DNA of 64,000 bases from Natronolimnobius baerhuensis. Its GTDB lineage: Archaea > Halobacteriota > Halobacteria > Halobacteriales > Natrialbaceae. The stretch lies in assembly GCF_002177135.1 (NCBI RefSeq), contig NZ_MWPH01000002.1, positions 1,197,255 through 1,261,254 of the forward strand, in the 5' to 3' direction. Of the stretch, positions 16,600-57,589 are shown one piece after another. Numbering within the stretch: the stretch's first letter is position 1; each line of letters opens with the position of its first letter. The translations under genes were made by a program, and so were the position numbers. Below the pieces are notes generated by a model. It made no database searches and had not been told where the DNA came from. It saw nothing but the letters and a program-made list of their open reading frames with translations.

Positions 16600-17247
<648 letters not shown>

Positions 17248-17272
17248 TCAGTCGCGGCTCTAGTAACCTGCA

Positions 17273-17467
17273 ATGGCGAAAGGTACGGTCGAATTCTTCA
17301 ACGACACTGGCGGCTACGGGTTCATCGAGAGCGAGGAGTCAGACGACGACGTGTTCTTCCACATGGAAGACGTCGGCGGTCCCGATCTCGAGGAAGGACA
17401 AGAAGTCGAGTTCGACATCGAGCAGGCCGATAAAGGCCCGCGCGCGACGAACGTCGAACGACTGTGA
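17273..17467 (+). CDS. cspA: Cold-shock domain protein
   Basis: This 64-residue protein is a single cold-shock OB domain. RNP1-like (GGYGFIESEE) and RNP2-like (DVFFHMEDV) motifs are in place, starting from MAKGTVEFFNDT. The family binds single-stranded nucleic acid and acts as an RNA chaperone. It has the acidic surface typical of haloarchaeal versions. The gene stands alone behind its own TATA box and is divergent from the lyxose-isomerase-like gene. Confidence 0.95.
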   Translation: MAKGTVEFFNDTGGYGFIESEESDDDVFFHMEDVGGPDLEEGQEVEFDIEQADKGPRATNVERL

Positions 17468-17708
17468 GCTGATTCAGTCGAGGTATCGTTCTCTGATTAT
17501 TACGACCGGTGAGCAACAGCACTCGTGGTTTTGTAGTGGTGTTCTCGAGGATCTGTCAGCACCGCGGGTCGGCGGTTGCAACGCTTCCATTCATACGTTG
17601 ACACAAAGCATATATTTACCAACCCCTGAAACGGAGACAGACAACCAGTGCACCCGATGCGACGCCCGTCCCCGCAGCCGACCCCCGCCTCGAGTTGGTA
17701 CTGCCACG

Positions 17709-18737: not shown

Positions 18738-18749
18738 CGACATCCCACC

Positions 18750-42043: not shown

Positions 42044-43369
42044 ATGGGGGACACATACTCGAAAGAAGGGGCATTCATCGTTCGCTGTCTTCAGGCGTGG
42101 CACCGCGGGACAGCCGTTCCAGCCGACGAGAGACCGGAGACAGATTCACTCGAGTGGGACCGGGTCCTCGAGTTGACGAGACGCCATTCCGTCGGCCCGC
42201 AGGTTGCGGCGGCGCTCCGTGAGACGACGGCCGCACAGGCGCTCTCCGTGGGCACCCAGGAGGCATCGACAGCGCCACCCGAGTCGACAGATACTAAGAC
42301 AGAATCGACGATAGCACCACAAACCGAGGATTCGACAGCCGTCGTAGACAGCGTTCCAGCGCATGTGTCCGAACGCCTGCGCGAGCGAAGCGCGTTCGTT
42401 GCCAGACGAAACCTCCAGCAGTTTCACGAACTCGCGTCGCTGTCGGCGACGTTTCAGGCGACGGGCATCCGCGCGATTCCCTATCGTGGGCCGGTGATGG
42501 CCCAACTCGGCTACGGCGATGTCGGCCAGCGAGAGTTCGGTGACCTAGACTTGCTCGTCGACCGCGAGGACATCCCCGTCATCAAATCGATCCTGCTCGA
42601 GCGCGGGTACGAACCGGCATACGTGCTCGACTCAACTGACGAATTAACCGTCTCACAGGAGCGGTGTTACCGCCGTCTCGGGCGCGAGTACACGTTCAAA
42701 CACACGGAGAGCGGAATCGAGGTCGAACTTCACTGGCGTGTACTCGCACGGCGGTTTCCAACCGGGTTCGACCTCGAGTCGGTGTGGGACCGACGCGAGG
42801 AACTGACCGTTGCCGGCACCTCGATGCCGGTACTATCCCCCACCGACCGACTCTTGCTGAGTTGTGTTCATGGCACGCGCCACCGCTGGGAGCGACTCCA
42901 CTGGTGGTGTGACGTCAGTCGCTGCCTCGAGAATGAGAGTCTCGACTGGGACGCAATCGTCCGACGCGCTCGAGCGCACACCTGCGAGCGGCAACTGTTG
43001 GTCGGACTGGCGGTCGTCGACTCTCTCTTTGCAGTGGGACTTCCCGACTGGATCGACCGTCTGATCGCAGACGAACCTGGACTCGAGGCGTTGTGTACGC
43101 ACGTCCACGAGCGGTTGTTCGATGAGACGACCTACTGGTTGCTCGATGAACGCCAGTATCAGGCGCGGACGCTAGATCGACGGCGGGACAAAGCCTCATT
43201 CTGGCTGTCGTGGCTGTTCGGCCCGAATCGCTCAGACGTCGAAGCGGTCGCGATTCCGTGGCCACTGACGCCACTGTATCGTCTCGTCCGACCGATCCGA
43301 CTCGCAAGCGGCGTGTTCGACCGATTCCGAACGGAGACTCACCCGGACACGGAGACCCAATGGTCCTGA
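42044..43369 (+). CDS. Lasso-cluster nucleotidyltransferase-like protein
   Basis: This 441-residue protein matches the NTP_transf_5-like family found in kinase-containing lasso-peptide clusters. After a variable lead with a Thr/Ser-rich insert (~68-105) come FHELASLSATFQATGIRAIP and YRGPVMAQLGYGDV, then the polymerase-beta-type metal motif FGDLDLLVDRED (Asp167, Asp169). GIEVELHWRVLARRFPTGFD and LSCVHGTRHRWERLHWWCDV follow. The family is thought to transfer a nucleotide, but the target in lasso pathways is not proven. The stop lies one base before the exporter start, so the two are co-expressed. It probably modifies the peptide or a partner. Confidence 0.8.
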   Translation: MGDTYSKEGAFIVRCLQAWHRGTAVPADERPETDSLEWDRVLELTRRHSVGPQVAAALRETTAAQALSVGTQEASTAPPESTDTKTESTIAPQTEDSTAVVDSVPAHVSERLRERSAFVARRNLQQFHELASLSATFQATGIRAIPYRGPVMAQLGYGDVGQREFGDLDLLVDREDIPVIKSILLERGYEPAYVLDSTDELTVSQERCYRRLGREYTFKHTESGIEVELHWRVLARRFPTGFDLESVWDRREELTVAGTSMPVLSPTDRLLLSCVHGTRHRWERLHWWCDVSRCLENESLDWDAIVRRARAHTCERQLLVGLAVVDSLFAVGLPDWIDRLIADEPGLEALCTHVHERLFDETTYWLLDERQYQARTLDRRRDKASFWLSWLFGPNRSDVEAVAIPWPLTPLYRLVRPIRLASGVFDRFRTETHPDTETQWS

Positions 43370-43370
43370 C

Positions 43371-45284
43371 ATGACCAACAGCGTGAATGCGACCGGCCGT
43401 GTCGGTGACGGCGACGATGGCAGCGACATCCCCAATACCGACGATGACACCAGTGCAGAGACGACGACCATCGAATCGAGCGAACCAACGCTTCGCGAGA
43501 AACTCGAGGCGTTGTGGACGGTCGTCGTCTTTCGGCCAGTAACAGTTGGCGTTATTCTGGCCCTCAAAGCGGTTGCAGCGGTGTTCGAGGGCGTTGGGCT
43601 GACGTTTCTCCTGCCGATCATCGAGGTTGCACAGGACGGTGGGACGCTTCGTGAGGAGGCGACGGGACCGCTTGCGTACTTCGTCGACGGCTACGAACTG
43701 CTTGGGATTACGGCCACGTTCGAAACGCTGTTGCTCGGCCTCGCTGCAGTCATGACGCTTCGATATAGCGTGAGTTTTCTCGTTGGCTGGATACAAGCGG
43801 CGCTGACACAGCAGTATATGGCCTCGCTCAGACGGGACGCCTACGAGTCACTGCTGGCTGCAGAAGTCGGCTACCTCGATCAGGCCGACGGTGACGAGAT
43901 TACCAATACGATTATCACCGAGGCTCGAACGTCAGCACGCTTGATCGGCGATATCCTCTCGGTCATCGAAAAGGGACTGTTCGCAGTCGTCTACGCGACG
44001 GTTGCACTGGTGATCTCGCCGACGTTGACCGTCCTTACGATACTCGTCCTCGGGACCGTCGTCGGAGTGAGTCGGTACGCCCTCGCACCCGGTTACGAAA
44101 TCGGCGACCGAGTCGCCACAGCGAACGAACGGATCCAGTCGCTCGTCAACGCCGGGACGCGCGGGCTATACGAGGTGAAACTGTTCACCATGCAACCGAC
44201 ACTCACTACCGAGTACGACCGCGCACACGACCGTCTCATCGAGACGTTCGTCAGACTCGAGCGGAATCAGGTTGCGTTAAGTGCGATCACGAAACTCCTC
44301 AATGCCTTCGTGATCTTTGTGCTCGTCTATCTCGCGGTTGCTCACCTGGCGCTGTCGTTTGCCGCACTTGGAGTCTTTCTGTTTGCAATGTTCCGACTCT
44401 CGCCGCTGATTAGTGGCCTCAACAACACGCTGTACTCGATTGATGGCGCGTTGCCACATCTTGTCCGCACACAGCGACTCATCGAGGCGTTCGACCAGCA
44501 CGCTGAATCCAGTGGGTCGGAACCAGCACCCACACCGACGACCACACTCGAGATGGACGATGTCACGTTCCAGTACGATCAGGACGCCGCCGGAACAGCA
44601 GTGACCGACGTCTCACTGCGCCTCGAGCGTGGCGAAACGATTGCACTGGCTGGTCCCTCTGGGGCCGGCAAATCGACGATTGTGTCGCTGCTGTCTGGAC
44701 TGTACGAGCCGGATGCGGGGACGATTCGGGCGAACGGGACGTCGATTAGCCAATTCGACCGGCACTCGTGGTACGAACGAGTGACCGTCGTCCCACAGCA
44801 ACCGTTTCTGTTTACCGGGACTGTCCGTGACAACGTTGCAATCGCCGACCCAACTGCGAGTGACGACGCCATTGCCCGTGCCTGCGAGATTAGTCAAGTG
44901 AACGCCTTTCTCGAGACGTTACCACAGGGAGTAAACACCCAACTCGGCGACGATGGTGTTCGCCTCTCAGGTGGCCAGCGACAGCGAATTGCGATTGCAA
45001 GAGCACTGCTCACTGATGCCGACATCTTGATCCTCGACGAAGCGACGAGCGAACTCGACTCGCCGACCGAGGAGGCCATTCTCGAGGGGCTCGAGGCGAC
45101 AGACCGCGAGTACGCGACGATTGTTATCGGCCACTGGCTGTCGACCGTCAGAGATGCAGACCGAATTTATACGGTTGTTGACGGCAAAATCGTCGAATCA
45201 GGGACACACGCCGAACTGATCGCTGGTGAGACACACTATGCAACACTGTATCAGCCACAGGTCGAACCGGCCCAGTCGCTGTAG
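43371..45284 (+). CDS. ABC exporter, fused permease/ATPase (lasso D-type)
   Basis: The protein has 637 residues, with an acidic lead of ~40, then a six-helix exporter domain (first helix VTVGVILALKAVAAVFEGVG; another VIFVLVYLAVAHLALSFAAL). The ATPase follows, with Walker A GPSGAGKST at 428-436, signature RLSGGQRQRIAIARALL, Walker B ILILDEATSELDSPT, and an H-loop Ile-Gly-His. Such half-transporters dimerise and pump substrate outward. In lasso clusters the D protein exports the mature peptide and gives self-protection. Its position between the nucleotidyltransferase and kinase genes matches that role. A lipid-oligosaccharide exporter is the alternative, given the glycan region next door. Confidence 0.85.
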   Translation: MTNSVNATGRVGDGDDGSDIPNTDDDTSAETTTIESSEPTLREKLEALWTVVVFRPVTVGVILALKAVAAVFEGVGLTFLLPIIEVAQDGGTLREEATGPLAYFVDGYELLGITATFETLLLGLAAVMTLRYSVSFLVGWIQAALTQQYMASLRRDAYESLLAAEVGYLDQADGDEITNTIITEARTSARLIGDILSVIEKGLFAVVYATVALVISPTLTVLTILVLGTVVGVSRYALAPGYEIGDRVATANERIQSLVNAGTRGLYEVKLFTMQPTLTTEYDRAHDRLIETFVRLERNQVALSAITKLLNAFVIFVLVYLAVAHLALSFAALGVFLFAMFRLSPLISGLNNTLYSIDGALPHLVRTQRLIEAFDQHAESSGSEPAPTPTTTLEMDDVTFQYDQDAAGTAVTDVSLRLERGETIALAGPSGAGKSTIVSLLSGLYEPDAGTIRANGTSISQFDRHSWYERVTVVPQQPFLFTGTVRDNVAIADPTASDDAIARACEISQVNAFLETLPQGVNTQLGDDGVRLSGGQRQRIAIARALLTDADILILDEATSELDSPTEEAILEGLEATDREYATIVIGHWLSTVRDADRIYTVVDGKIVESGTHAELIAGETHYATLYQPQVEPAQSL

Positions 45285-45372
45285 GCATCGCTGCTAGCCA
45301 CTCGAGACGGTGCCACTAGTATTCACATAACAAAGTCGTTACTACAAAGTACAGTGGATTCGAATACAGACT

Positions 45373-46302
45373 ATGTATCGGTACGCTGCGTACGGACTCG
45401 AGATTCAGTCGTCGATTCAGTTACCGGAGTTTCCACGGTCCGAGACCACTCAGCCGGCCGACGCGGTGTTTCGCCAGGGAGCTGTCGAACGAGTTCCGGA
45501 GTCAGTTCCCAGCGTGGGTCGCCGACGGATCGAGGCCGAACCTGGCCGCTGTCGGTTCAGCTACGATGGACTCGGTTCGTTTCTCGTCGAAGATGGGGAT
45601 CGAATCGTCTTCGACGCCGCAGCCGAACTCAAGGAAGGAGACAGTCCGCGCAAACTCATCCGTCGGCTCTTTGCCAACGAACTCATCTGTATGCTCGTCC
45701 ATCAGCGCGGAGAGTTGGTCCTCCATGCGAGTGCCGTCGCCATCAACGACGAGGCAGCGATCTTTCTCGGTCCGAAAGGGGCCGGGAAATCCACAACCGC
45801 CGTTGCGTTTCACGAGCAGGGATACCCGGTTCTCGAGGATGACCTCGTTGGAATCCGATTCGACGAGTCAGGACAGCCCGTCGTCGTCCCCGGCATCCCA
45901 CAGGTACGGCTGCTACCGGATGCAATCGACGGACTCGCACTCGAAGGAACGACTCAACCAGAACAGGAGGGAGACGCCGAGAAGCGATACAAAACCGTCG
46001 ATACCGTTCAGGAACCGAAACCGCTTACACGATGTTATTTCCTCGAGACGGGACCCGAAATCGCGTTTGAGCCAGTCCCCGCACAGAATCGAGTCCTACA
46101 GGTGATTGCACAGACGTATACTAGCGGACTGCTCGCCAAGACGGACACCGTTGCGGACAACTTCGAGTTATGTACAGCGATTGCATCGGCGTCGTCGTTC
46201 GCAACGCTCACTCGCCCACAGGACCACACACAGTTGCCTGCAGTCATCGATGCAGTTGTCGACCACATGGCACCAAGTGCGCAGAAAAACAGCATTGACT
46301 GA
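45373..46302 (+). CDS. HprK-like lasso-peptide kinase
   Basis: This 309-residue protein resembles the C-terminal kinase part of HPr kinase. Residues 1-115 include RYAAYGLEIQSSIQLPEF and a small beta region. His118 (LVLHASAVAIN) precedes Walker A GPKGAGKST at 133-141, and VLEDDLVGIRF carries the acidic metal residues. In bacterial lasso clusters of this type the kinase phosphorylates a serine of the precursor's C-terminal part. Here both precursors end ITGSI plus one residue, so a Ser is available but is not the last residue. It converges on the precursor genes. Confidence 0.85.
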   Translation: MYRYAAYGLEIQSSIQLPEFPRSETTQPADAVFRQGAVERVPESVPSVGRRRIEAEPGRCRFSYDGLGSFLVEDGDRIVFDAAAELKEGDSPRKLIRRLFANELICMLVHQRGELVLHASAVAINDEAAIFLGPKGAGKSTTAVAFHEQGYPVLEDDLVGIRFDESGQPVVVPGIPQVRLLPDAIDGLALEGTTQPEQEGDAEKRYKTVDTVQEPKPLTRCYFLETGPEIAFEPVPAQNRVLQVIAQTYTSGLLAKTDTVADNFELCTAIASASSFATLTRPQDHTQLPAVIDAVVDHMAPSAQKNSID

Positions 46303-46312
46303 CGATCCCCCA

Positions 46313-46330
46313 CCCCCTTACTGGAGGGGG
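46313..46330. terminator. GC-rich hairpin between convergent lasso units
   Basis: CCCCCT and AGGGGG pair around a six-base loop just after the kinase stop and before the minus-strand precursor stop. No T-run follows on either strand, so termination is uncertain. Confidence 0.3.
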
Positions 46331-46407
46331 AACGGCCAGCCTGCGAACTGTTTTGCATTCGTTCGGCGATTCATCGCTTCCGGCCAGCGTGGTGTCTATG
46401 GGCGCAG

Positions 46408-46566
46408 TTAGACAATCGAACCGGTGATGACCATCCCAGCATCGGCAGTCGCCTCCGTCACCGAATCTTCGCTGTCACCGATTTTATCGTTCTGGGTGAG
46501 TGTTTCGACTGTGCCGTATGCGGTCAGTGCTGGCCGTTCGTACCGTGGTGATGTGCTATCTGACAT
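46408..46566 (-). CDS. Lasso peptide precursor 1
   Basis: This 52-residue peptide carries the canonical lasso leader motif YxxPxLxxxGxxxxxT: Tyr9, Pro12, Leu14, Gly18 and Thr24 in YERPALTAYGTVETLT. Cutting after the residue following Thr24 leaves a 27-residue core beginning NDKIGDSED, with Glu8 or Asp9 as possible ring acceptor. Cutting before Gly30 leaves GDSEDSVTE..., where Gly1 could close on Glu9. The tail ends AGMVITGSIV. It is the last gene of the B1-B2-C-A2-A1 run. An AT-rich box (46590-46602) about 27 bases upstream gives it its own promoter. It is too short for many gene callers. Confidence 0.85.
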   Translation of the reverse strand: MSDSTSPRYERPALTAYGTVETLTQNDKIGDSEDSVTEATADAGMVITGSIV

Positions 46567-46587
46567 CAACTAATACATGGCCCCCAA

Positions 46588-46602
46588 CCATTATAATATT
46601 AA
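46588..46602 (-). promoter_or_regulatory. TATA-like promoter of lasso precursor 1
   Basis: On the minus strand TTAATATTATAA lies 25-35 bases before the ATG at 46566. It suggests separate strong transcription of this precursor. Confidence 0.5.
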
Positions 46603-46638
46603 CTGTCTTGAGTATAAAATAAAATCGGTTGCGTGGTG

Positions 46639-46794
46639 TTAGAAGATGGATCCAGTGATGGACACACCGGTGTCAGCCGCTGCCTCCGTCACTGCATCTT
46701 CGCTGTCACCGACTTTGTCGTTCTGCGTGAGCGTTTCGACTGTACCATACTCGGTCAATTCCGGACGGTCGTATCGTGATGTATTGTCGGACAT
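46639..46794 (-). CDS. Lasso peptide precursor 2
   Basis: The peptide has 51 residues from the ATG at 46794; an upstream ATG at 46821 adds nine residues without leader features. The leader motif is intact: Tyr8, Pro11, Leu13, Gly17 and Thr23 in YDRPELTEYGTVETLT. The core region reads NDKVGDSEDAVTEAAADTGV and ends SITGSIF. It is a close paralogue of precursor 1, 72 bases away, identical through GTVETLTQNDK and GDSED and differing mainly toward the C-terminus. The two probably give related but distinct products from one maturation machinery. Confidence 0.85.
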   Translation of the reverse strand: MSDNTSRYDRPELTEYGTVETLTQNDKVGDSEDAVTEAAADTGVSITGSIF

Positions 46795-46820
46795 CGCCGT
46801 ATAGTTTATTCTGTATAGCA

Positions 46821-46830
46821 ATAAAATTTA
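46821..46830 (-). promoter_or_regulatory. TATA-like promoter of lasso precursor 2
   Basis: On the minus strand TAAATTTTAT lies 27-36 bases before the ATG at 46794. Confidence 0.4.
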
Positions 46831-46880
46831 GTGCCTAATAAATTGGTCTTGAACGGAGAGAAGTGGTAAACTGCGGGCGC

Positions 46881-48785
46881 TTATGACTGCTCGAGTGCGG
46901 TCGGCTGCTTTTGGTGTGGCCATGCCTCGAGCCAGGCCGCAAGTGAGCGAGCACGCCAGAGTGTCCGAGCATCGCGACTCGAGGGTGACGTTTCAAAACG
47001 GTCGGATGCGGCCTGCAGTTCATCCATATCGAGATAGCGCGCCAGAGAACCGGGATTCTCGAGCAGGTTGGTGAGTGCCTCCCTTTCGTTTGTGAGTGCG
47101 TTCCAGAACGCTTCGTCCATCATCGTTTTCCAGGGCCGTTCCTGGATCGACTGCGGCAGGAGGTCGGAAAGGGACCGACGAACAATTGCTCTCGTCCAAC
47201 CATCACGAAACTGCTGGGAGGGAGGCATTGCCAGTGAGAGTTCAAGCAAGCGTTTATCCGCAAAGGGATAGCGCGGTTCGACGCCGAACGCCCCATAGCG
47301 CAGGTCGATTGCCTCGAGATTGGCGGCGTGGCGTTCGGAGGTGAGCGAACGATACTGGCGGAGTCGGTCGGTAGTCGCGACACGGAGTGAGTGCGATCCA
47401 GCAAGCGACTGGTAGCGCTCGCGGAGGCCGATCCGGTCGACGAATACGGGATTCAACGCAGGATTCGCCTGCGCCTCGAGAATGGGCTTGCCACGATGGG
47501 TTCGATACGTGCGTCGAACTGAATCTGGAACGAGCGAAAAGAGGACATGGCGAACGAACAGATGGCTCGCCGGTGTCCCGAAGTGCTCGCCCATTGCCTG
47601 CAGTTCACGCCTGAGATGTCGCCAGCGTGCGGTCCGGAACAGTTGCGGTAACAGTCCGAGGCCGTAGTTCGACGTACAGTCGCCGAGAACGCCATTTAAG
47701 GCGATATCGACGCCAACTTCGTCAGTCCGACGTGACAGTTCCCACACCGAAAAGTAGAGCGTGTTGTGTGGCGGTCGGTCGAAGTACGTCAGCATCTCTG
47801 CTTCGTTCTCGAGTACACCGATCCCATCTGGTCGAACGAAATGCGGGACAATCCCGGACTGGTCGGTGACAGCCTCGATATACTCGCGTTCGTCACTCGA
47901 GTCGGCCTCATCGAAGACCGTCGAGAACGTGTGGAGTGGCTCGTCATCGGGGAGGATATCTCGAGCAACGACAGTGACCGACGAGGAGTCGAGACCGCCA
48001 CTGAGTTCCGAGCCAATTTCCCCCGCAGTACGGAGTCGACAGCGGACGGCCTCCTCGAACGTTTCCCGAAAGCGACGTTCGTAGGCGGCATCCGATGGGC
48101 ACGAAAGCGTTTTCGACGGGTCGAGGCTCCAGTATTGCCAGTACTCGCAGTCGGTGGGCGTGACGACCATCGCATGTGCTGGTGGAAGCCGTTGGACGTG
48201 TTCGTAGTACGAAATCGTCTCGTCCTCGAGTCGGCCCGTCAGGAAGTCACCGATCCGTCGCTCATCGATAGTTCCCGGAACGCTCGAGAGGGGAAGCAAT
48301 GCCTTGAGTTCGGTTGCAAACGCGAACGTGGCATCGGTCTGATGGTAATAAAACGGTTTGACGCCGACGTGGTCGCGCGCACAGAACAGGCGTGACTCTC
48401 GCTCGTCCCAGATGGCAAACGCGAAGGCCCCAATCAGGTGCTCGACACACGCAGTGCCCCACTTTCGATAGGCTGCAAGTAGCAGGTGACTATCGGGGGC
48501 CGCTGGCGAGAGCGACGACATCGACCCCGAAAGTGCCGCCAGTAACTTCGCGCGATTGTCGAGGCGAGCATCCGCGGTAATCACCAGGTCACCATCGCGA
48601 TACGGCTGCTCGTCGCGGGCCTGTGGTGTCGTTGCAAGCAGTTGATGGCCCAGTCCCACTCGACGCGCCTGCCAGCAGTCGCCGCCATCCGGTCCCCGAT
48701 GGGCCAGTCGCTCGTGCATTCGCTCGAGTATGCCAGCCTCGAGTGGGTCTCCGTTGCGGTCGAGCAGTCCGAGGAGTGCACTCAT
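46881..48785 (-). CDS. Lasso macrolactam synthetase (asparagine synthetase-like, C protein)
   Basis: This 634-residue protein is related to asparagine synthetase B. The N-terminal glutaminase-like domain (1-~200) starts Met-Ser instead of Met-Cys, so the Cys2 nucleophile is missing, as expected of lasso cyclases that do not use glutamine. The later LAHRGPDGGDCW is retained. The synthetase domain has the ATP PP-loop SGGLDSS at 262-268 and the downstream YPFADKRLLELSLAMP motif. It would adenylate the ring Asp/Glu side chain of the precursor and close the macrolactam with the new N-terminus. It overlaps B2 by four bases and precedes both precursor genes. Confidence 0.88.
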   Translation of the reverse strand: MSALLGLLDRNGDPLEAGILERMHERLAHRGPDGGDCWQARRVGLGHQLLATTPQARDEQPYRDGDLVITADARLDNRAKLLAALSGSMSSLSPAAPDSHLLLAAYRKWGTACVEHLIGAFAFAIWDERESRLFCARDHVGVKPFYYHQTDATFAFATELKALLPLSSVPGTIDERRIGDFLTGRLEDETISYYEHVQRLPPAHAMVVTPTDCEYWQYWSLDPSKTLSCPSDAAYERRFRETFEEAVRCRLRTAGEIGSELSGGLDSSSVTVVARDILPDDEPLHTFSTVFDEADSSDEREYIEAVTDQSGIVPHFVRPDGIGVLENEAEMLTYFDRPPHNTLYFSVWELSRRTDEVGVDIALNGVLGDCTSNYGLGLLPQLFRTARWRHLRRELQAMGEHFGTPASHLFVRHVLFSLVPDSVRRTYRTHRGKPILEAQANPALNPVFVDRIGLRERYQSLAGSHSLRVATTDRLRQYRSLTSERHAANLEAIDLRYGAFGVEPRYPFADKRLLELSLAMPPSQQFRDGWTRAIVRRSLSDLLPQSIQERPWKTMMDEAFWNALTNEREALTNLLENPGSLARYLDMDELQAASDRFETSPSSRDARTLWRARSLAAWLEAWPHQKQPTALEQS

Positions 48786-49297
48786 GGCTGTTCACGCCTA
48801 TTGAGTGGTGGAAGCGGTTCGAACCGTGAGAGGTCCTCGAGATGACCGAGCAAGACCGACTCATCGTACTCGATCCAACTGTGGGCTTCGAAGCCCGCTG
48901 GTGTGTCAGCCTCGAGACTGGCGTGGTCGCTGCCAGTTTCAGACGCTGGTTCGTCGTCGGAGTCCTCACCGCAGGCAGGTGCAACGCCGATTCGATGAAC
49001 GATATCGTGATCGTAGAGTCGGTGGATCGTCTCGGCAGTAACGGATCGCATTAGACAGGTTCGATGGCCTGGAATCGACCGGTCAGCAGTGTCGACCGCC
49101 CAGGCGACGTGTGCGGGCGACGGGGAACCGGGGACAACGCGAGCGACCGGGCGCGCGATCACCAGCAGTCCGTGTCTAAACGGTGCAAACGGCAGGAGTG
49201 CGAACGCGACTCGAGCCAGCACTAATAGGGTGGCTGCTACGAGGAGTCGGAACTTCTCCCCGAGCGGGACCGCGAGGAAGCCGGCTATCCGTCCCAT
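48782..49297 (-). CDS. Lasso leader peptidase (McjB-type transglutaminase fold, B2)
   Basis: The protein has 171 residues. The first ~55 are partly hydrophobic (LLVAATLLVLARVAFALLPF), then the McjB C-terminal domain follows: VAWAVDTADRSIPGHRTCLM with catalytic Cys81, ETIHRLYDHDIVHRIGVAPA, and FEAHSWIEYDESVL with catalytic His139. An acidic insert (~110-130) is unlike bacterial homologues and suits a halophile. It should cut the leader from the precursor after B1 delivers it. B1 lies nine bases upstream and the cyclase overlaps its end, so all three are translated together. Confidence 0.87.
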   Translation of the reverse strand: MGRIAGFLAVPLGEKFRLLVAATLLVLARVAFALLPFAPFRHGLLVIARPVARVVPGSPSPAHVAWAVDTADRSIPGHRTCLMRSVTAETIHRLYDHDIVHRIGVAPACGEDSDDEPASETGSDHASLEADTPAGFEAHSWIEYDESVLLGHLEDLSRFEPLPPLNRREQP

Positions 49298-49305
49298 GTA
49301 CTTCG

Positions 49306-49632
49306 TTACTCCTGTGTCGCCGGGTTGTTGTCGGCCTCAACCTCGATGAGTCCGGCATCGATCATCTCATGAAGGATGTCGCGAACGTCCCGTCGGCACT
49401 GTTCGGCCGAGACGTCGTCGTACGCCGCATGAATCGTCTCACAGAGGCTCTCGACAGTCCGTGGCTCCTGGACGAGTTCCCAGAGATGTGAGCCAACCTC
49501 GTTGAAGCCGTAGTACGTCCCCGACTCGAGTTCGAGGAGAACGGTTTCACCGTCGATTGTTGTCGCTAGATGGTCCTCGGTTGCGACAACTGCCGCCGTC
49601 ACTGGAATCGATTCAGTATCCCCCATAGTCAT
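49306..49632 (-). CDS. PqqD-like leader-binding protein (lasso B1/RRE)
   Basis: The protein has 108 residues from the ATG at 49632; GTG 49635 and ATG 49626 are alternatives. It is a stand-alone PqqD/RiPP-recognition element: ATTIDGETVLLELESGTYYG followed by FNEVGSHLWELVQEPRTVES, then a helical part (RRDVRDILHEMIDAGLIEVE). In lasso pathways B1 grips the Tyr/Pro/Leu/Gly leader motif and hands it to the B2 protease. It is the first gene of the maturation operon, behind a strong TATA-like box. Confidence 0.87.
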   Translation of the reverse strand: MTMGDTESIPVTAAVVATEDHLATTIDGETVLLELESGTYYGFNEVGSHLWELVQEPRTVESLCETIHAAYDDVSAEQCRRDVRDILHEMIDAGLIEVEADNNPATQE

Positions 49633-49656
49633 CACTTATTTATTCCATCCTTCACA

Positions 49657-49735: not shown

Positions 49736-50371
49736 ATGGATTTCACGAGAACAGCAGAGACGGACAGACAGGCCAGACGACTCCTCGCGATTCTCTTGCT
49801 CGGTGGGATTCTCAGCGGCCTATTCGTGTGGTACGGTATAACCGGTCCGCCGGATTCGGCGAGCGCCCAGTTACCAGACGAGTCCGAGTTTGGGCCAGCA
49901 ACTGACGAGTACATCGGTGAGCGGGTCGCCGCAACCGGCACAATCGTCGACACAGATCCCGTCAGACTCGAGGTCGAGTACGGTGATGAGTCGACAACGG
50001 TCGTCCTCGAGGGGTATACCGCGCCGGCTGAGGTGGGGTCGTACGAACTCGTCACGGGCACCCTCCGCGATGAGTCGACGATTGCTGTCGTCGGAAGCGA
50101 GGCCAGAGAACCCTGGGAAGCGACCTACATGTACGCCGTCTCGATACTCGCGATTTGCTGGATTGTCGTTCGTCTCGGCCGTGGCTGGCGCTTCGACCGC
50201 GACCAGTTCGCCTTGGTCCCTCGAACCCAAACCCGAACCCAGGTAGCGACACACCAGAACGCGAGCGGAGCATCGACTCGAGAGACGAATATGAGCGCGC
50301 ACGTGACTACGAACACTAACGCGAGTCCAGCCGCCAGCGACGGTTGCGACGAGGGAGACACAGATGGCTGA
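49736..50371 (+). CDS. Membrane protein with OB-like extracellular domain
   Basis: The protein has 211 residues. An N-terminal helix (RLLAILLLGGILSGLFVWYG) anchors it. Residues ~55-125 form a small beta domain (RVAATGTIVDTDPVRLEVEY, TTVVLEGYTAPAEVGSYELV) resembling an OB-fold. A second helix (YMYAVSILAICWIVVRLG) and a Thr/Asn-rich tail follow. It is divergent from the lasso B1 gene (103 bases) and overlaps the next gene by eight bases. Its function, and any role in lasso self-protection, are unknown. Confidence 0.65.
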   Translation: MDFTRTAETDRQARRLLAILLLGGILSGLFVWYGITGPPDSASAQLPDESEFGPATDEYIGERVAATGTIVDTDPVRLEVEYGDESTTVVLEGYTAPAEVGSYELVTGTLRDESTIAVVGSEAREPWEATYMYAVSILAICWIVVRLGRGWRFDRDQFALVPRTQTRTQVATHQNASGASTRETNMSAHVTTNTNASPAASDGCDEGDTDG

Positions 50372-50867
50372 TCTCCTGACACACGTTCTCGTCGGCTACT
50401 GTCTCGGCACAGCACTCTCGATTCGCGTTACGTGGATTCGGCCGGCACACGTGACGATGGTCATGGTCGGGGCAGCGCTGCCTGACCTCGCGAAGATCGA
50501 ACTCGTCGTCTCCTGGCGAACGATGGTCAGTCGCTTTGGCGTCCCCTGGGACTGGTTCGCGTTACATACGCTTGGTGGCACAGTCGTAACAGTCCTGCTC
50601 GTGAGTCTGTTGCTCGAGCCAAAAGAACGCTGGCGAGTGGCGTGCCTGCTCGCAGTCGGCGTTGCCTCGCATCACGTTTTCGACGTCATCTTGCTTTCAC
50701 GAACCGGCCTCTCCTACCCGGTTTTCTGGCCGCTAACGACGTATCAGCCGCCGGCCGGTGGACTGTTTTACAGTTGGGATCGCTGGCCGGCCGCTGTCAC
50801 TGGTATCGCCGCCTTCTGTCTCTGGCGGTACCGCCTGCGACGCGAAAACAGTCCCTCACCCGTCTGA
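50364..50867 (+). CDS. YdjM-like membrane-bound metal-dependent hydrolase family protein
   Basis: This 167-residue protein has about five helices and the family's early motif MADLLTHVLVGYCLGTAL followed by GAALPDLAKIELV, with a conserved His and Asp. HTLGGTVVTVLLVSLLLEPK and VASHHVFDVILL bring further His residues. The YdjM/DUF457 group is annotated as membrane hydrolases on fold similarity, with no proven reaction. It overlaps the upstream gene by eight bases and its end runs 12 bases into the convergent DUF1616 gene. Confidence 0.75.
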   Translation: MADLLTHVLVGYCLGTALSIRVTWIRPAHVTMVMVGAALPDLAKIELVVSWRTMVSRFGVPWDWFALHTLGGTVVTVLLVSLLLEPKERWRVACLLAVGVASHHVFDVILLSRTGLSYPVFWPLTTYQPPAGGLFYSWDRWPAAVTGIAAFCLWRYRLRRENSPSPV

Positions 50868-51959
50868 GTCAGTCACATCCACCCAGATCGAGACATCGTC
50901 TGCTGCAGTGTCGGTCGAGGGATCGTCCGGTACTGCGTCGAGATACAGCGCCCAGACGAGTCGGACCTCGCCCGTCATCGTCGGACGAACGTCGTGACGG
51001 TGATGCCACGTCTCATTGTGTGCCAATTCCGTCTCGAATCGCTCGAGTTCGCGCTGCTCTGTGACCGTCACGTTCGTCTCGCTGTGGCGGTCGATCTGTT
51101 GCTCGAGGACGACAACGGAGTACTCGACAGGGCGGTGTTCGTGATTGTCGAGGCCGACGACGAGGGTTGTGGAGTCACCGGGCGCAAGCGTCGTTGGATA
51201 GCCGTCGGCAACGAGGTCGCCGTCGTCATCCTCAGTGAGCAAAGCAATGCCGGAGAACTGCTCACCCGGACTGGAACCCTCCCCAGGAATCGCTGACGGG
51301 GCAACGACAGCGACGGTGATCGTGCTTACAGCCAGTACCACTGCGATGATGACGATGATGTTGAGCACCCCATCGACTCGCGTCGGTGGGTGGACCACGC
51401 CGTCTCGAGCGACCGCGAGCCATCGTCGGTACGGAACGCGAAATCGATCCTCGGGTGGAAGTCGAAGCCGCCGAATTGCCGCGACTCCAGTTCCAACGAG
51501 TACGAGGCCCCCAAGTGCAACCGTGACCGTCTCGGGTTGGATCCCCCAAGGCGTGACGTGCAACCCGACGCCGACAACCGGAACGAGTGCAACGCTGAGT
51601 GCCGCCGACAGAATCAGGCGCTCGAGGCCGTCAATCCCGTCTCGTCTCGAGGCTGCAGCCGCAGGGTGGGCCACACTCGAGTCAGTGCCCGCGGTTTCGG
51701 TGGTCGTCGGCGGAACAGACGCATCTTGAGCAGTCGGCGAAGTGCCAGCCGCTGGAAATAACGCCGCAACGAAGGCATATCCGGGAGCGAACAGGACGAA
51801 CAACACTCCGGCAACGAGGTGGAGCGCCGTCCCACGGAGACCGGGAAACAGGGACAGACCAACGGTACAAATCGTGAGGGCGGTGATACCGACCAGATCG
51901 ACTGGCACGGCCCGCAAACGCCACCAGCGGTGGTCACGATGTAACTGCCTGTTCGACAT
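50856..51959 (-). CDS. DUF1616 membrane protein
   Basis: The protein has 367 residues, with an N-terminal helix pair (VDLVGITALTICTVGLSLFP and LVAGVLFVLFAPGYAFVAAL). A Thr/Ala-rich loop (~75-110), two more helices (LSVALVPVVGVGLHVTPWGI, VALGGLVLVGTGVAAIRRLR) and another at ~215 follow. An extracytoplasmic C-terminal beta domain carries LAPGDSTTLVVGLDNHEHRP, a DUF1616 hallmark. Such proteins are widespread in haloarchaea and often occur near glycan and lipoprotein genes. No function is established. Confidence 0.83.
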   Translation of the reverse strand: MSNRQLHRDHRWWRLRAVPVDLVGITALTICTVGLSLFPGLRGTALHLVAGVLFVLFAPGYAFVAALFPAAGTSPTAQDASVPPTTTETAGTDSSVAHPAAAASRRDGIDGLERLILSAALSVALVPVVGVGLHVTPWGIQPETVTVALGGLVLVGTGVAAIRRLRLPPEDRFRVPYRRWLAVARDGVVHPPTRVDGVLNIIVIIAVVLAVSTITVAVVAPSAIPGEGSSPGEQFSGIALLTEDDDGDLVADGYPTTLAPGDSTTLVVGLDNHEHRPVEYSVVVLEQQIDRHSETNVTVTEQRELERFETELAHNETWHHRHDVRPTMTGEVRLVWALYLDAVPDDPSTDTAADDVSIWVDVTDSDG

Positions 51960-52053
51960 ACACAGACATCACTGTTCAGGTACAAAAATTAAGTGATGTT
52001 ATAGCTGGAACACGTCCGCTGAGTACGGCGATACTGACTGACAGGAGACCGCC

Positions 52054-54387
52054 TCAGGTTTCGATCACGAGTCCATCCAGCGCGTCGAGGTCAACTGGTT
52101 TATCGTCCGTGAGTTTGAGCAGTGCCTGTGCGGTGAGCAGTGCCTCTTCGGCCGTCTCGACCGTGACTGTCGCTGGCCCGAATGCAGCGCGTTCGTACAG
52201 CGATGTGAGCAACTCGAGGTCGTCAGTTTGCGGGCCAGTATAGCGCTCGTAAAACTCCCAGTGAGTCAGCGACTGCGCCGTCTCGCCAGCCACTGTTGTA
52301 TGGAGTTGCAGCCGAACCGCTGCATAGGCCAGTTCAACAGCCTCGTTCGTCCGTCCACTCGAGAGGCGGTCGTCGGCCTGCTCGAGCAGGTCATCACTTT
52401 TTGTTGACGACGTGGGTGCAGGTCCAGAGCCAGAATCGGGTTCGGCTGCCTCGACAGTGGATGAGAGTGTCGACTGCGCTAGCGATGTCTCACCGGAGTG
52501 GCCCTCATCAGTCGAGTGAGTCGCCGCGCCAGCGCTCGAGCCAAACTGGCTTTTCGACTTGCGTCCCACACCGAAGCGTGACCGGAAGCGACGGCGAACG
52601 CTCGAGCTACTGTACCAAATACCACTCCCGGCAGCACCGAGGACGGCAAGGGCACCGGCCAGTACGACCGCGAGTCTCGGCCACCCGTCGACACCCGCAA
52701 CGAGCGTCGGTAACTGCCCATCGGTGACAGACGTCGTCACGGCAATTTCGTTCAGATTCGTGTTGGTGCCGTCGTAGCTGACGGTCACCTGCTGGTCGAC
52801 AGCAACGGACCCTGGCGAGAGTGTCTCGGAAAACTGGCCGCCAGCATCGGTCCAGATCGTTCCAACAGGAGTGCCCTCGAGTGTGACCGCTACCGGCTGG
52901 CCCGGAACTGGCGTCCCCTCGAGCGTCGTTAGCGTCCCCGCAACTGCGAGGTCGCCGTCATCAGTTCGGACAGCCTCACTGTACAGTGCCGTCTCGCTCT
53001 CTCTGACGGTCAGGTCGTGTGTCGCACTCGCCGACGTAATCGCGCGGTCAGTGCCGTCGACCGTTGCAATCAGTTCGTGCTCGCCTGCTGGGACCGACGC
53101 TGGAAGCACGATATCGCCCTCGAGTGTCCCCGATTCGGTCTCGAGGGTGCCGAGTGTGGTGTCCCCGATTGTCAGTGTGACTGGTGCCCCATCGACCGAG
53201 CGGTTCTTGGCTGTCAGCGTTCCTGACAGCCCAATCCGCTCGCCATAGGCGACACCCGACTCGAGGTCGTCGTCTGGGAGTGACGAGGGCTGGTAGCCAT
53301 GATCGGTGTCAGCATCGAGGGAGAGGGTGGCTGGCGCGGCGTCGACTGCGACCGGAACCGTCGTTTCCGTCTTCTGATGGGGGATTCCGGGCGCTGGCCG
53401 ATACTGGACTGGAATCTCGTCGACAGTAGGAGACAGCGGGTCCGGCTGATACGAGACAGTGAACGTCCCGTCATCGACGGCTACCGACTGTGACTCACCG
53501 TTGATCTCGAGTGGAAGTGAGTCAATCTCGGTCCACGACTCGGCTGGTTCGGACGCAGTCTCGAGGGTTCCAGTTATCGTCACCGTCTCCGTCGGCCCGA
53601 CCGAATCGGCATCCGCCGTAGCCGTAAGCGTTGTCGGAGCAAACTGTGCCTCCCGAATAGTCTCTTGGCGTTCCTGAATGGACTGGGGACGATCAGCAAG
53701 CGACTCGGCTAGTGCTGGCCCATCGACTGCCGCGAGAGCGTCGATCACCGACCGATGCTCTGCGAGTCGTTCGGTTGCCACATCAACGTCGGCAGCCAGG
53801 GTATCGAGTTCACGAGCATGCTCGAGGGCCCCAGCCTCGTTGCCATCGTCAATCGCCTGTTCGTATGCCGTTTCAGTGTCATCGTAGCTGTCGACTGCCT
53901 CGATCAGAGCTAGCTGCTCGACTCGAGTCTGTTCAAACGCGTCGACGACGTCTGCTGGCTCGAGGTCGTCTGACCGCGTCTCGAGTGGTGTCTCGGGTCC
54001 GCCAGCCTGGGCCTCAGAAAGTGGGTCCGCTTCGTCTAACTCGCCGGCAGCACCAGTTTCGGCGACGAGTGTCTCGTACTGGTCGACGCGCTCGACGTAC
54101 GTCTCATCGAGCGGCACGCGTGCGTCATCGATGGTTCCAGCCGCAATCGCGGCCGAACTGCGCTGTAATCGGTCCTCAAGATCATCGATGAACCACGCTT
54201 GCAGGCTATCGTAGTCGCCATCGTCATCATACTCCGCGGGGTCGAGGTGGACGACAGGATCGCTGTCGTTCGCCGCTGGCACGGTCGAACTCGTGGCGAT
54301 GCTCGAGCCAGCAGCGACGGCGAGGCCGACACAGCAGACGAGTGCAACGAGGACGCAAAGACGAGCCCAGTCGACGTTCACATACAC
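52054..54387 (-). CDS. Large surface protein with Ig-like domains and C-terminal DUF4129
   Basis: The protein has 777 residues. A signal peptide (LCVLVALVCCVGLAVAAGSS) leads into a helical, Glu/Asp-rich region (~40-250). Several immunoglobulin-like beta modules follow (PTTLTATADADSVGPTETVT at ~255; YGERIGLSGTLTAKNRSVDG; TVSYDGTNTNLNEIAVTTSV). One membrane helix (WPRLAVVLAGALAVLGAAGS) then leads into a cytoplasmic DUF4129 domain (RTNEAVELAYAAVRLQLHTT). DUF4129 is usually attached to transglutaminase proteins in MoxR/DUF58 operons. Here it stands alone, beside the second such gene set. Confidence 0.8.
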   Translation of the reverse strand: MYVNVDWARLCVLVALVCCVGLAVAAGSSIATSSTVPAANDSDPVVHLDPAEYDDDGDYDSLQAWFIDDLEDRLQRSSAAIAAGTIDDARVPLDETYVERVDQYETLVAETGAAGELDEADPLSEAQAGGPETPLETRSDDLEPADVVDAFEQTRVEQLALIEAVDSYDDTETAYEQAIDDGNEAGALEHARELDTLAADVDVATERLAEHRSVIDALAAVDGPALAESLADRPQSIQERQETIREAQFAPTTLTATADADSVGPTETVTITGTLETASEPAESWTEIDSLPLEINGESQSVAVDDGTFTVSYQPDPLSPTVDEIPVQYRPAPGIPHQKTETTVPVAVDAAPATLSLDADTDHGYQPSSLPDDDLESGVAYGERIGLSGTLTAKNRSVDGAPVTLTIGDTTLGTLETESGTLEGDIVLPASVPAGEHELIATVDGTDRAITSASATHDLTVRESETALYSEAVRTDDGDLAVAGTLTTLEGTPVPGQPVAVTLEGTPVGTIWTDAGGQFSETLSPGSVAVDQQVTVSYDGTNTNLNEIAVTTSVTDGQLPTLVAGVDGWPRLAVVLAGALAVLGAAGSGIWYSSSSVRRRFRSRFGVGRKSKSQFGSSAGAATHSTDEGHSGETSLAQSTLSSTVEAAEPDSGSGPAPTSSTKSDDLLEQADDRLSSGRTNEAVELAYAAVRLQLHTTVAGETAQSLTHWEFYERYTGPQTDDLELLTSLYERAAFGPATVTVETAEEALLTAQALLKLTDDKPVDLDALDGLVIET

Positions 54388-54483
54388 TCATTCGTACCTA
54401 AAATCAAAAAGCTATTCAATTGAATCAGCTGTATGTGTACAGACAACGGAGGGGCCGACCGGTGGTCCCAACGGGAGCCAACA

Positions 54484-55989
54484 ATGCATCTAGAGACACG
54501 ACTGCGTACGTGTGGGGCGCTTGCCCTCGCCCTCGTCGGACTGGCAATACTGTTTGACTCGGTCGTCGTGTTACTCGGTGCAAGCGCACTCTGTGGCTGG
54601 CTCCTCGCTCGCTCCCTCGCGTTCGCTGCTGAACTCGAGCGGACCCTCGAGTCCCTCCATGTCGAGCAGGAACTCGAGCGAACGACCGTCCGCGCTGGCG
54701 CGACCGTACAGCACTCGGTCACCGCAACGCTTGCGACACCGAGTCGACTGCGGCTCACACTCGAAGCCACTGTGCCACCGACCGCGACGCTCGAGGGAGA
54801 CGTACCAACGCTTGCGCTCACGCCAGGGATGTCCGCAGCACGCGTCTCACAGCCACTTTCGTGGCCAGTCGCCGGTCACTACGATTTCGATGGGGTGACG
54901 ATCACGGCGACAGATGGTTTCTTTCGAAAAACGATTTCACTCGAACAGGACTGCTCAATCACTGTCGAGACGAGCCCAGCAGCGCCCACGCAAGCGAAGA
55001 CGGCAGGAACGCAGTTTGCAGCCGCCAGCGACACTTCCCGCAGTCGACTGGGAACCCGTGGTCATCCAGCATACGCACGGGAGTACGTCCCCGGCGATTC
55101 ACTCGAGCAAATCGACTGGAAAGCAACGGCACGGCTTGGGACGACCTACATCAGGGAGTTCGAGACAGCGACGAGCCAGCCCGAACACCTCATCGTCGAC
55201 CACCGCGGAGCCGATGCGAACACGCGGACTGCCCTTCAGACAGCCGCGCTCTCAGTCGTCTCCCGTGCATCACGAAACCGCGATCCCATCGGAGTGCTCA
55301 TTCTCGGCGACGATGGACTCACCGCTAGTCTCGACCCGACCGCAACCGACAACGGCTATCGAACCGTCCAGAATCGGCTGTACGAACTCGAGGCCGCTCC
55401 CGAGACACAGACAACAGCGAACACAGCCAACTGCCGACTCACCGCTGACCGGGCACGCGCTCATCTCGCGAATCTTGGTCCGCCACCGACGACCGACACG
55501 ACAACTCGAGAAGATGACCCGTTCGTCTCGATGCTTCGTCCGTTCTACGACGAACAAGTCCGTGGCACCGACGGCAACTATCGGTCGGTCGAGTCACTCA
55601 CCGAGGCACTGCGTCTCCGTCGAAGTGGACCAGTGACTGCTCAGCGAACGACGCTGCTCTCGGCTGGCACTCACCCTGCTGATCTCCACAGGGCAGTCTC
55701 GCTCGCGCGAACACATGGTGACGTCACAGTCGGCCTCGCGACGCCGTCGTCATCACCACAGCCTCGCCCCTCACAGATTCCTGCCGACGATAGACATGCC
55801 CCAGCCGAAACAGGATCTCCCGCTGGACTCGAGACCGATATTGCACACACCGACGCACTCGAGGATGCCCAGTTCCGGCGACAACTTGCACGACAGAACG
55901 GAATCACCGTCCGTTCCATCACGACCGCACACACGGAAGCGACGACAGAGGCAGAACACGAGACAATCACTCGAGGTGAGCACCGATGA
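54484..55989 (+). CDS. DUF58 protein, second copy
   Basis: The protein has 501 residues from the ATG at 54484; an in-frame ATG at 54433 would add 17 residues, nearer to an AT-rich box. N-terminal helices (CGALALALVGLAILFDSVVV, LLGASALCGWLLARSLAFAA) precede a beta region. The DUF58 motif is AREYVPGDSLEQIDWKATAR, then LGTTYIREFETATS. A ~150-residue C-terminal extension is polar and poorly ordered. The stop overlaps the next start (ATGA). With the downstream genes and the MoxR at 57590 it forms a second MoxR/DUF58 set. Confidence 0.85.
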   Translation: MHLETRLRTCGALALALVGLAILFDSVVVLLGASALCGWLLARSLAFAAELERTLESLHVEQELERTTVRAGATVQHSVTATLATPSRLRLTLEATVPPTATLEGDVPTLALTPGMSAARVSQPLSWPVAGHYDFDGVTITATDGFFRKTISLEQDCSITVETSPAAPTQAKTAGTQFAAASDTSRSRLGTRGHPAYAREYVPGDSLEQIDWKATARLGTTYIREFETATSQPEHLIVDHRGADANTRTALQTAALSVVSRASRNRDPIGVLILGDDGLTASLDPTATDNGYRTVQNRLYELEAAPETQTTANTANCRLTADRARAHLANLGPPPTTDTTTREDDPFVSMLRPFYDEQVRGTDGNYRSVESLTEALRLRRSGPVTAQRTTLLSAGTHPADLHRAVSLARTHGDVTVGLATPSSSPQPRPSQIPADDRHAPAETGSPAGLETDIAHTDALEDAQFRRQLARQNGITVRSITTAHTEATTEAEHETITRGEHR

Positions 55990-56552
55990 ATCCACTCATC
56001 GGCGCGACATCCGGTCCCTCCTTGAGAGGACCGGGACCGCTCATCGCCCTGTGTCTCATCGTCATCGGCCTTTGGGTGAGTGCCGGTCCAATCGGGCTTG
56101 GTGTAAGCATCGGAGTCATCCTCACTTGGCTCGCGTTAGGAACGCCGTATGCGGTCGCGGTTGGCTTCATCGGTCTCGCAGCCAGTGCACCAACCGAAAC
56201 GGGAACGATGATCGAGACAGCCCACTGGCTCCCGATTTCGGGATACGCGCTATTGCTCGCCAGCGACAGCGGCCCAGCCCCATCGCGTCGGCACCGCTTC
56301 CTCGCACTTGCGAGTATCGCGTGCCTGGTTGCACTCGCTGGTCTCGTCTACACACTCCGGCCGGCCAGTCTGTGGCTCGCTGGATTGACGGTACTGATCT
56401 GTACAGTCGGACTCACACTGCTCTGTCACCGATACGAACGATACCGCCTCGAGCAAGCCCTCGAGAGCACAAACCACCAAGGCGAACACGGATCCGCGGT
56501 CGAACACGGTACCGACCCCACCGATGACGCCGAGACAGCTGCGCATTCATGA
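55986..56552 (+). CDS. Polytopic membrane protein
   Basis: The 188 residues contain five or six helices (LIALCLIVIGLWVSAGPIGL, GVILTWLALGTPYAVAVGFI, FLALASIACLVALAGLVYTL, LWLAGLTVLICTVGLTLLCH) and an acidic, His-rich tail. No domain is recognised. It is coupled on both sides by ATGA overlaps, between DUF58 and the next membrane protein, so it probably acts in the same complex. Confidence 0.7.
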   Translation: MNPLIGATSGPSLRGPGPLIALCLIVIGLWVSAGPIGLGVSIGVILTWLALGTPYAVAVGFIGLAASAPTETGTMIETAHWLPISGYALLLASDSGPAPSRRHRFLALASIACLVALAGLVYTLRPASLWLAGLTVLICTVGLTLLCHRYERYRLEQALESTNHQGEHGSAVEHGTDPTDDAETAAHS

Positions 56553-57508: not shown

Positions 57509-57589
57509 GACTTTCATAGTCGGCCGGCCTGTTTTATCGGAGCGGAGACTGTCTGGGAATCGATTCGTCCACACCGACACCGACACTCC

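Follow-up and report, generated by a model that had tools for sequence, protein, structure and literature searches.

We examined a 64,000-nucleotide stretch of the haloarchaeon Natronolimnobius baerhuensis (contig NZ_MWPH01000002.1, positions 1,197,255 to 1,261,254 of the forward strand; hereafter the window, in whose coordinates positions are given), in which a first-pass annotation had recognized a lasso-peptide biosynthetic cluster. All seven kinds of lasso part that it had placed in one block lie within positions 42044-49635, as judged by profiles and motifs: a nucleotidyltransferase (NT), an ATP-binding cassette (ABC) exporter, an HprK-like kinase (K), the PqqD-like protein B1, the predicted leader peptidase B2, a macrolactam cyclase (C), and two precursors (A1 and A2). 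The genes form two converging blocks, with NT, the exporter and the kinase on the + strand and, reading from the right, B1, B2, C, A2 and A1 on the - strand (Table 1). By its gene content this is a real, complete and conserved lasso-type cluster. The blocks are separated at 46303-46407 by a GC-rich sequence resembling a hairpin (CCCCCTTACTGGAGGGGG), which may be a terminator common to both; sequence comparison did not reveal it at L028, one of the related haloarchaeal loci considered below.

Table 1. Features of the lasso-type cluster in the window (lengths in amino acids, aa)
Feature	Position	Strand	Basis
NT, lasso-associated nucleotidyltransferase, 441 aa	42044..43369	+	PF14907; relatives at haloarchaeal loci
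ABC exporter, 637 aa, predicted export/immunity	43371..45284	+	PF00005 and PF00664 above cut-off
HprK-like kinase, 309 aa	45373..46302	+	Motif spacing, alignment, AlphaFold model, fold and profile matches
Precursor A1, 52 aa; leader through Thr24, then Q-NDKIGDSEDSVTEATADAGMVITGSIV	46408..46566	-	NF033521; dN/dS
AT-rich promoter-like stretch 5' of A1, TTTTATTTTATACTCAARACAGTTAATATTATA	46567..46638	-	Common to same-genus relative; promoter role inferred
Precursor A2, 51 aa; leader through Thr23, then Q-NDKVGDSEDAVTEAAADTGVSITGSIF	46639..46794	-	NF033521; dN/dS; own-genome search
Gap between C and A2 with TATA-like block GGCACTAAATTTTATTG	46795..46880	-	Common to same-genus relative; promoter role inferred
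C, AsnB-like macrolactam cyclase, 634 aa, SGGLDSS ATP motif	46881..48785	-	NF033535; invariant ATP-motif residues
B2, predicted leader peptidase, 171 aa, Cys81 and His139	48782..49297	-	NF033537; invariant Cys/His
B1, PqqD-like predicted leader-binding protein, 109 aa	49306..49635	-	PF05402; TbiB1 match

The cyclase scored 632 bits against the lasso cyclase model NF033535 (cut-off 525) but only 254 bits against the AsnB model, below the cut-off of 267. Because C starts MSALL, its residue 2 is Ser rather than the catalytic Cys; residues S262, G263, G264, D266 and S267 are invariant across 20 aligned rows, and among solved structures it matched enzymes of the AsnB type and CarA, besides a single ribosomal chain that looks like a chance hit. 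B2 scored 78.3 bits against NF033537 (cut-off 33) and had no match among solved structures; its Cys81 and His139 are invariant in all 15 haloarchaeal B2 rows. Both details of the first-pass annotation, a cyclase lacking Cys2 and a B2 with this Cys/His pair, therefore hold. B1 matched the PqqD family PF05402 at 72 bits (cut-off 23.4), as well as the solved lasso B1 protein TbiB1 (5v1u) at E 1.5e-12, and NT matched PF14907 at 201.8 bits (cut-off 31.2). The kinase motif H118-G133-G136-G138-K139-S140-D156-D157 is spaced as in BsfK (PMC10368454), and H118, G133, G138, K139, S140, D156 and D157 are invariant in 15 rows. An AlphaFold model of the kinase (predicted local distance difference test score 90.8) matched PEPCK and HprK folds, and profile comparison also gave HprK. 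The assignment of each protein to its lasso family was thus borne out by profiles above cut-off for C, B2, A1, the PqqD family and NT, but not for B1 on the lasso-specific model NF033536 (69 bits versus 80), A2 on the leader model NF033521 (18.5 bits, just below the cut-off of 19 that A1 exceeds with 21.5), or the kinase, which had no profile above cut-off (HprK_rel_A, 33 versus 200).

Both precursor leaders fit Y-x2-P-x-L-x3-G-x5-T, in agreement with the reading proposed earlier. Compared with a same-genus relative, most changes in the two genes are silent, with nonsynonymous (dN) and synonymous (dS) rates of 0.047 and 0.99 for A1 and of 0.077 and 0.84 for A2. A search of the organism's own genome for precursors returned A2 as the second match (E 1.1e-19) and none beyond A1 and A2. 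Because dN is far below dS and because the search yielded these two alone, A1 and A2 are, judged by their substitution patterns, real genes under purifying selection and not chance open reading frames (ORFs).

Characterized lasso cores start two residues past a leader Thr, which is replaced by Ile in one case (PMC10368454). We refer to the usual rule as the Thr -2 rule: leader Thr at position -2, and a ring acid (Asp or Glu) at core residue 7, 8 or 9. Both window precursors comply, offering Glu8 and Asp9 as ring acids. We then considered their relatives. A profile built from 23 haloarchaeal type-I precursors retrieved 137 relatives at E 0.01, of which 120 were among the matches listed; these 120, together with those of the 23 not among them, make a set of 128 that includes the window's two. 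All named sources in the set are haloarchaea, and many other members come from metagenome contigs.

All 128 precursors carry [N/D/E/S]-K-x5-D, the residue before the Lys (K-1) being Asn in 90, Asp in 34, Glu in three and Ser in one. The Lys and the Asp six residues beyond it are invariant, and Gly occupies K+2 in 107. Across the 15 columns from K-4 to K+10, conservation is lowest at K-2 (3.34 bits, with 14 different residues found there). When the first 16 letters past the Thr in the 120 listed sequences were shuffled, 11% had K-x5-D. While the Lys-Asp spacing is fixed, the distance from the leader Thr to the Lys is 3, 4, 5, 6 or 7 in 1, 36, 57, 11 and 23 precursors, respectively, and it reaches 8 in L045, which is not in the set. 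The Thr -2 rule leaves 65 of the 128 without Asp or Glu at core 7-9, all of them among the 91 with a distance of at least 5; all 36 precursors at distance 4, the window's two included, do have such an acid. The leader Thr that the first-pass annotation had taken for granted is present in the window precursors, but the spacing that goes with it fails in 65 members of the set. In the stretches at L038 and L042, a single B2 and a single C accompany precursors that differ in this distance (6 and 5). One of seven other haloarchaeal precursors checked, that of L037, also has K-x5-D; its core, KRGRGQD, places Lys1 and Asp7 by the Thr -2 rule. A precursor class with a rigid K-x5-D uncoupled from the leader Thr appears to be new; archaeal lasso clusters themselves are not.

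Other precursor types were seen at some haloarchaeal loci. At L029, L033 and L035, a single B1 and a single B2 are surrounded by two cyclases and by two or three kinases (type I plus type II), and their type-II precursors (T-x-GxHFSxVDGNSGTTGNRG) fit a classical Gly1-Asp8 lasso. At L043 (10865-11020), a precursor-like ORF beside a distant cyclase has a Gly-Lys/Arg repeat past the leader (GKGRGRGRGRGRG) and no acid near its start.

Outside the haloarchaea, we hand-picked 61 bacterial and other archaeal precursors from ORFs beside cyclase relatives, dropping unlikely ORFs and counting in-locus repeats once; four loci (L054, L055, L082 and L158) had been looked at by eye before the count. Fifty of the 61 keep the Thr -2 rule and 11 break it. 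Recounted on full sequences, K-x5-D within 16 residues of the Thr occurred in 9 of the 11 rule-breakers versus 1 of the 50 rule-keepers, and in 9 of 11 versus 1 of 43 after similar cores were collapsed (Fisher p 3e-8 and 1e-7, respectively, values that ignore kinship). A second, overlapping search, with 24 of these precursors as queries, gave 41 proteins, 22 rule-breakers and 19 rule-keepers, with K-x5-D in 21 and none of them, respectively. Without the nine members of the first set the figures were 19 of 20 versus 0 of 12, and when each set of similar cores was represented by one protein, 5 of 6 versus 0 of 12. In the 28 distinct members of the class outside haloarchaea, Gly at K+3 is invariant. 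Their K-1 residue is Leu in six, Gly in four, Pro in four, Asn, Arg, Lys and Ala in three each, Val in one and another residue in one more; Pro is found at K-2 in one of the 28, the bacterial L082 (Dehalococcoidia).

On a 60-row cyclase tree, whose bootstrap had not settled and which labels L037 as classic although it too has K-x5-D, at least 4 changes of class label are needed, compared with a mean of 18.6 after shuffling, and well supported branches require at least 2 of them. The groups carrying the label are the haloarchaeal type-I sequences, L054 with L055 (Rokubacteria, Chloroflexi), L065 with L069 (Acidobacteriota), L158, and L082. L158, from another archaeal family of the same phylum, has three tandem K-x5-D precursors (KASGTAD, KPPGTAD and KVPGTAD; 8202-8541 on the - strand), which stand beside B1, B2, C, kinase, ABC and NT genes. 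The largest bacterial group of the class that we saw (P0133-P0160) comprises about 14 precursors, those with a named source coming from Acidobacteriota, that read K-x-K-x-[PLF]-G-x-x-D-D-F-G at Thr-to-Lys distances of 5 to 8.

Because the Lys-Asp spacing is fixed while the leader distance varies, the ring is, as far as the alignments indicate, likely positioned in a way that departs from the textbook rule. Some amine at a constant spacing from the ring Asp has to close the ring, whether it comes from K-2 (ring of 9), K-1 (ring of 8) or the Lys itself (ring of 7, through either its backbone or its side-chain amine). Rings of 7, 8 and 9 residues have all been characterized (PMC13352647). Genes, motifs, conservation and purifying selection are what we observe at the locus; the product, its ring, threading, modification, export and function are predictions.

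With fair confidence, we predict that the complete cluster converts its 51-52-residue precursors into rings closed on the invariant Asp, likely with the invariant Lys first. B1 would bind the Y-P-L-G leader and B2, through Cys81 and His139, would remove it. The cut would fall behind the conserved Asn/Asp, and the AsnB-like cyclase would adenylate the Asp of K-x5-D (Asp34 of A1) for attack by the amine, which Lys28 of A1 would supply to give the seven-residue ring K-I-G-D-S-E-D. The HprK-like kinase would then phosphorylate the Ser of a conserved tail motif (ITGS), NT would attach a hexose or nucleotide at the phosphate, and export of the product would fall to the ABC protein.

In classical lasso families, the two fixed points of the core are residue 1 and the acid. 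We lean toward the Lys because Lys and Asp are the two fixed points here, K-2 varies almost freely, both neighboring positions can be Pro, and L037 reads as Lys1-Asp7. A macrolactam with the invariant Lys as residue 1 and a ring of seven is, on this comparison, the best single reading, although we hold it at slightly less than even confidence. Tentatively, we extend it to the K-x5-D precursors as a whole, which may form a separate class, spread over haloarchaea, one other archaeon and several bacterial phyla, in which the Lys provides the amine and the core itself sets a seven-residue Lys-Asp ring. In its boldest form, the amine would be that of the Lys side chain, with an AsnB-type enzyme making a graspetide-like Lys-Asp crosslink; this, if true, would free the leader from the spacing rule.

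Several observations weigh against the Lys as ring amine. The Thr -2 rule works in the window itself, where it gives Asn1-Asp9 with Glu8 as an alternative acid, and Asn1 is experimentally proven in metanodin (PMC12670498). In lariocidin, whose lasso structure is solved, Ser1-Asp8 with Lys2 amounts to K-x5-D with the amine one residue before the Lys (PMC11451635), and L159 reads Val1-Lys2-Asp8 by the Thr -2 rule. At K-2, the archaeal L158 has Gly, Gly and Ser, in keeping with a nine-residue ring. L030, whose kinase gene lies on a different contig, nevertheless retains the tail Ser. The invariance of Lys and Asp in the 120 listed matches is partly selected, because the search profile has both as invariant columns, an effect that leaves the linker variation untouched. 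Finally, because relatives share ancestry, the counts are not independent, the label changing 4 times on the cyclase tree.

The best surviving alternative is a classical Asn1-Asp9 (or Glu8) ring, with cores NDKIGDSED... and NDKVGDSED... in the window and, in relatives, a cut that slides away from the Thr so that the ring starts at K-2. It draws on the Thr-Asp distance of 10 in the window, which resembles that of many bacterial relatives, on the suitable acids of all distance-4 precursors, on the K-2 residues of L158 and on metanodin, which matches the window in having Asn as ring residue 1 with a Thr two residues before it; metanodin differs in its soil-bacterial source, and no K-x5-D is described for it in the extract of that paper (PMC12670498). 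We nonetheless consider this ring rather unlikely, given the poor conservation of K-2, the Pro of L082 at that position, and the 65 precursors that cannot obey the Thr -2 rule at ring sizes of 7-9. An eight-residue ring starting from the conserved Asn/Asp, [N/D]1-K2-x-G-x3-D8 (Asp1-Asp8 in the window), would be lariocidin-like and appears less probable again. K-1 is Asn or Asp in 124 of the 128 precursors, the paired type-II precursors fit Gly1-Asp8 by the Thr -2 rule, and the Lys2-Asp8 spacing is found in both L159 and lariocidin, but K-1 varies widely in the 28 members outside haloarchaea. Lariocidin, for its part, departs from a Lys-closed ring in using the Ser1 amine, and the second isopeptide of its variant LAR-B joins the Lys2 side chain to the C-terminus, not to the Asp (PMC11451635).

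A cut kept at Thr -2 throughout, with longer linkers giving 10- to 12-residue and probably unthreaded macrolactams of which the window would be a nine-residue member, seems very improbable. It would retain the known peptidase rule, and the two linker lengths beside one B2 at L038 and L042 speak for it; however, characterized rings have 7-9 residues, a one-residue change in ring size strongly lowers production in the cases reviewed (PMC13352647), and the rigidity of K-x5-D would be left unexplained. Finally, although the cluster adjoins sugar epimerase and glycosyltransferase genes and a flippase-like gene recognized by eye, we reject the view that it is an ordinary asparagine synthetase and transporter operon of a polysaccharide locus with small ORFs as noise, which is extremely improbable given a cyclase without Cys2, its profile scores, the purifying selection on the precursors and the clustering of the same parts in cyanobacteria.

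A C-terminal Ser is the phosphorylation site of PadeK and PsmK, and PsmN adds hexoses there (PMC9266682). Neither window precursor has a Ser at its C-terminus (they end SIV and SIF), and a C-terminal Ser is found in 17 of the 128 haloarchaeal-type precursors versus 15 of 38 bacterial and other archaeal ones. The cluster had been described as paeninodin-like, with kinase and NT; a lasso cluster with these two genes is supported by gene neighborhood, profiles, motifs and fold, but the likeness to paeninodin is confined to the gene set, the C-terminal Ser being missing. BsfK acts on Ser3 (PMC10368454), and kinase-type clusters are therefore wider than the C-terminal-Ser feature. An internal [LIVF]-x-G-S motif occurs in 122 of the 128, and in the remaining six the Ser is replaced by Thr or Asp (two each), Glu or Ala (one each); this Ser usually lies 11 residues past the ring Asp (96 of 128), and 16 past it in the window. 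From its conservation, this internal Ser (Ser50 in A1) is a candidate site for the kinase. NT, whose gene accompanies that of the kinase with one exporter gene in between, is predicted to place a hexose or nucleotide on the phospho-Ser. Loss of the kinase in L030 was considered and rejected, the gene having been found on another contig.

Comparison of 19 haloarchaeal loci (the window and L028-L045) showed that the gene set recurs: C was found in all 19, each of B1, B2 and K in 18, NT in 16 and the ABC gene in 15, with all six in 14. Such a cluster is by itself not out of the ordinary for a haloarchaeon, since archaeal clusters are in print and the cyclase (E 1e-60 or better) is present in 16 of 391 genomes of the class. 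At the same threshold it was detected in 11 of 125 genomes of the family, and both examined genomes of the genus have it. A phylum-wide cyclase search matched 42 of 392 genomes, with matches near 300 bits taken as plain asparagine synthetases; 5 genomes outside the class matched at 400 bits or more, and in one of these (L161) no precursor-like ORF was found. On a 66-row cyclase tree, the 22 haloarchaeal sequences group together (94/99) and include a type-I branch of 17 rows and a type-II branch of three, and cyclases of other archaea fall among bacteria. On the 60-row tree, the Bacteroidetes sequence L081 sits among haloarchaeal ones, on an open fork. Spread by plasmids was considered and dropped; 2 plasmid records matched at E 1e-60.

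To the right of the cluster (49736-58651) lie genes for a small protein without family, YdjM, DUF1616, a large membrane-type protein, DUF58 and a MoxR-type ATPase. This flank recurs beside the cluster in L028, L030, L031, L032 and, within the extent of its stretch, L034, and much of it is also common without the cluster. Its first two genes (49736-50371 and the YdjM-like 50364-50867) both adjoin it at six loci (L028, L029, L030, L031, L032 and L034) of the 15 from L028 to L042. Because 82 and 94 of the 125 genomes of the family, respectively, have relatives of these genes, versus 11 with the cyclase, we rejected them as lasso-linked extras and took them as general neighbors. In seven regions from genomes without a detected cyclase, the DUF1616 gene adjoins glmU/glmS in four, and neither was seen in three. 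The window contains two MoxR-ATPase and DUF58-type gene sets, at 17124-22228 (recognized by eye) and 52054-58651 (Pfam).

Among known systems, paeninodin (pade, PMC9266682), pseudomycoidin (psm, PMC8498205) and the Bradymonas bsf cluster (PMC10368454) resemble the window in A, B1, B2, C, D and an HprK-like kinase; psm and bsf also have a nucleotidyltransferase, and the YxxPxL leader and the kinase residues H-G-G-G-K-S-D-D are common. The window differs from all three in lacking the C-terminal Ser, in its internal [LIVF]xGS, its acidic core with one Lys, its converging blocks and its archaeal host. Cyanobacterial clusters (NF033535/NF033528; for example L046-L053) have cyclases about 40% identical to that of the window and contain B1, B2, C, A, K, ABC and mostly NT, all in one direction. 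Unlike the window's type, their listed precursors follow the Thr -2 rule, having an acidic residue at core 7, 8 or 9, and show no K-x5-D near the start. The annotated haloarchaeal precursors (Natrarchaeobius, Halobellus, Natronobiforma and others) and the Halopiger xanaduensis plasmid cluster belong to the same precursor and enzyme families as those of the window.

That lasso clusters had already been predicted in archaea, as the first-pass annotation stated, is confirmed both by public records, which name precursor relatives "lasso RiPP family leader peptide-containing protein", and by print. PMC10093198 mentions both the Halopiger plasmid lasso cluster and a cluster in haloarchaea that contains B1, B2 and a kinase, PMC12144867 mentions lassopeptides in archaea, and PMC7533575, citing Tietz et al. 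2017, names Euryarchaeota as an underexplored lasso source. In the extracts of the open-licence papers searched, we found no archaeal lasso product or core rule, nor any core, ring or spacing proposed for the annotated haloarchaeal precursors.

Current lasso prediction relies on two marks, a penultimate Thr in the leader and an acidic residue at core 7-9. Roughly half of the collected haloarchaeal-type precursors, together with a distinct bacterial group, fall outside this rule, and their cores are therefore likely to be mispredicted or missed. If the Lys closes the ring, the scope of lasso cyclases widens; if it is not the ring amine, the peptidase must locate its cut via the core. Either answer would provide a core rule for archaeal lasso peptides, along with a testable internal site for the kinase.

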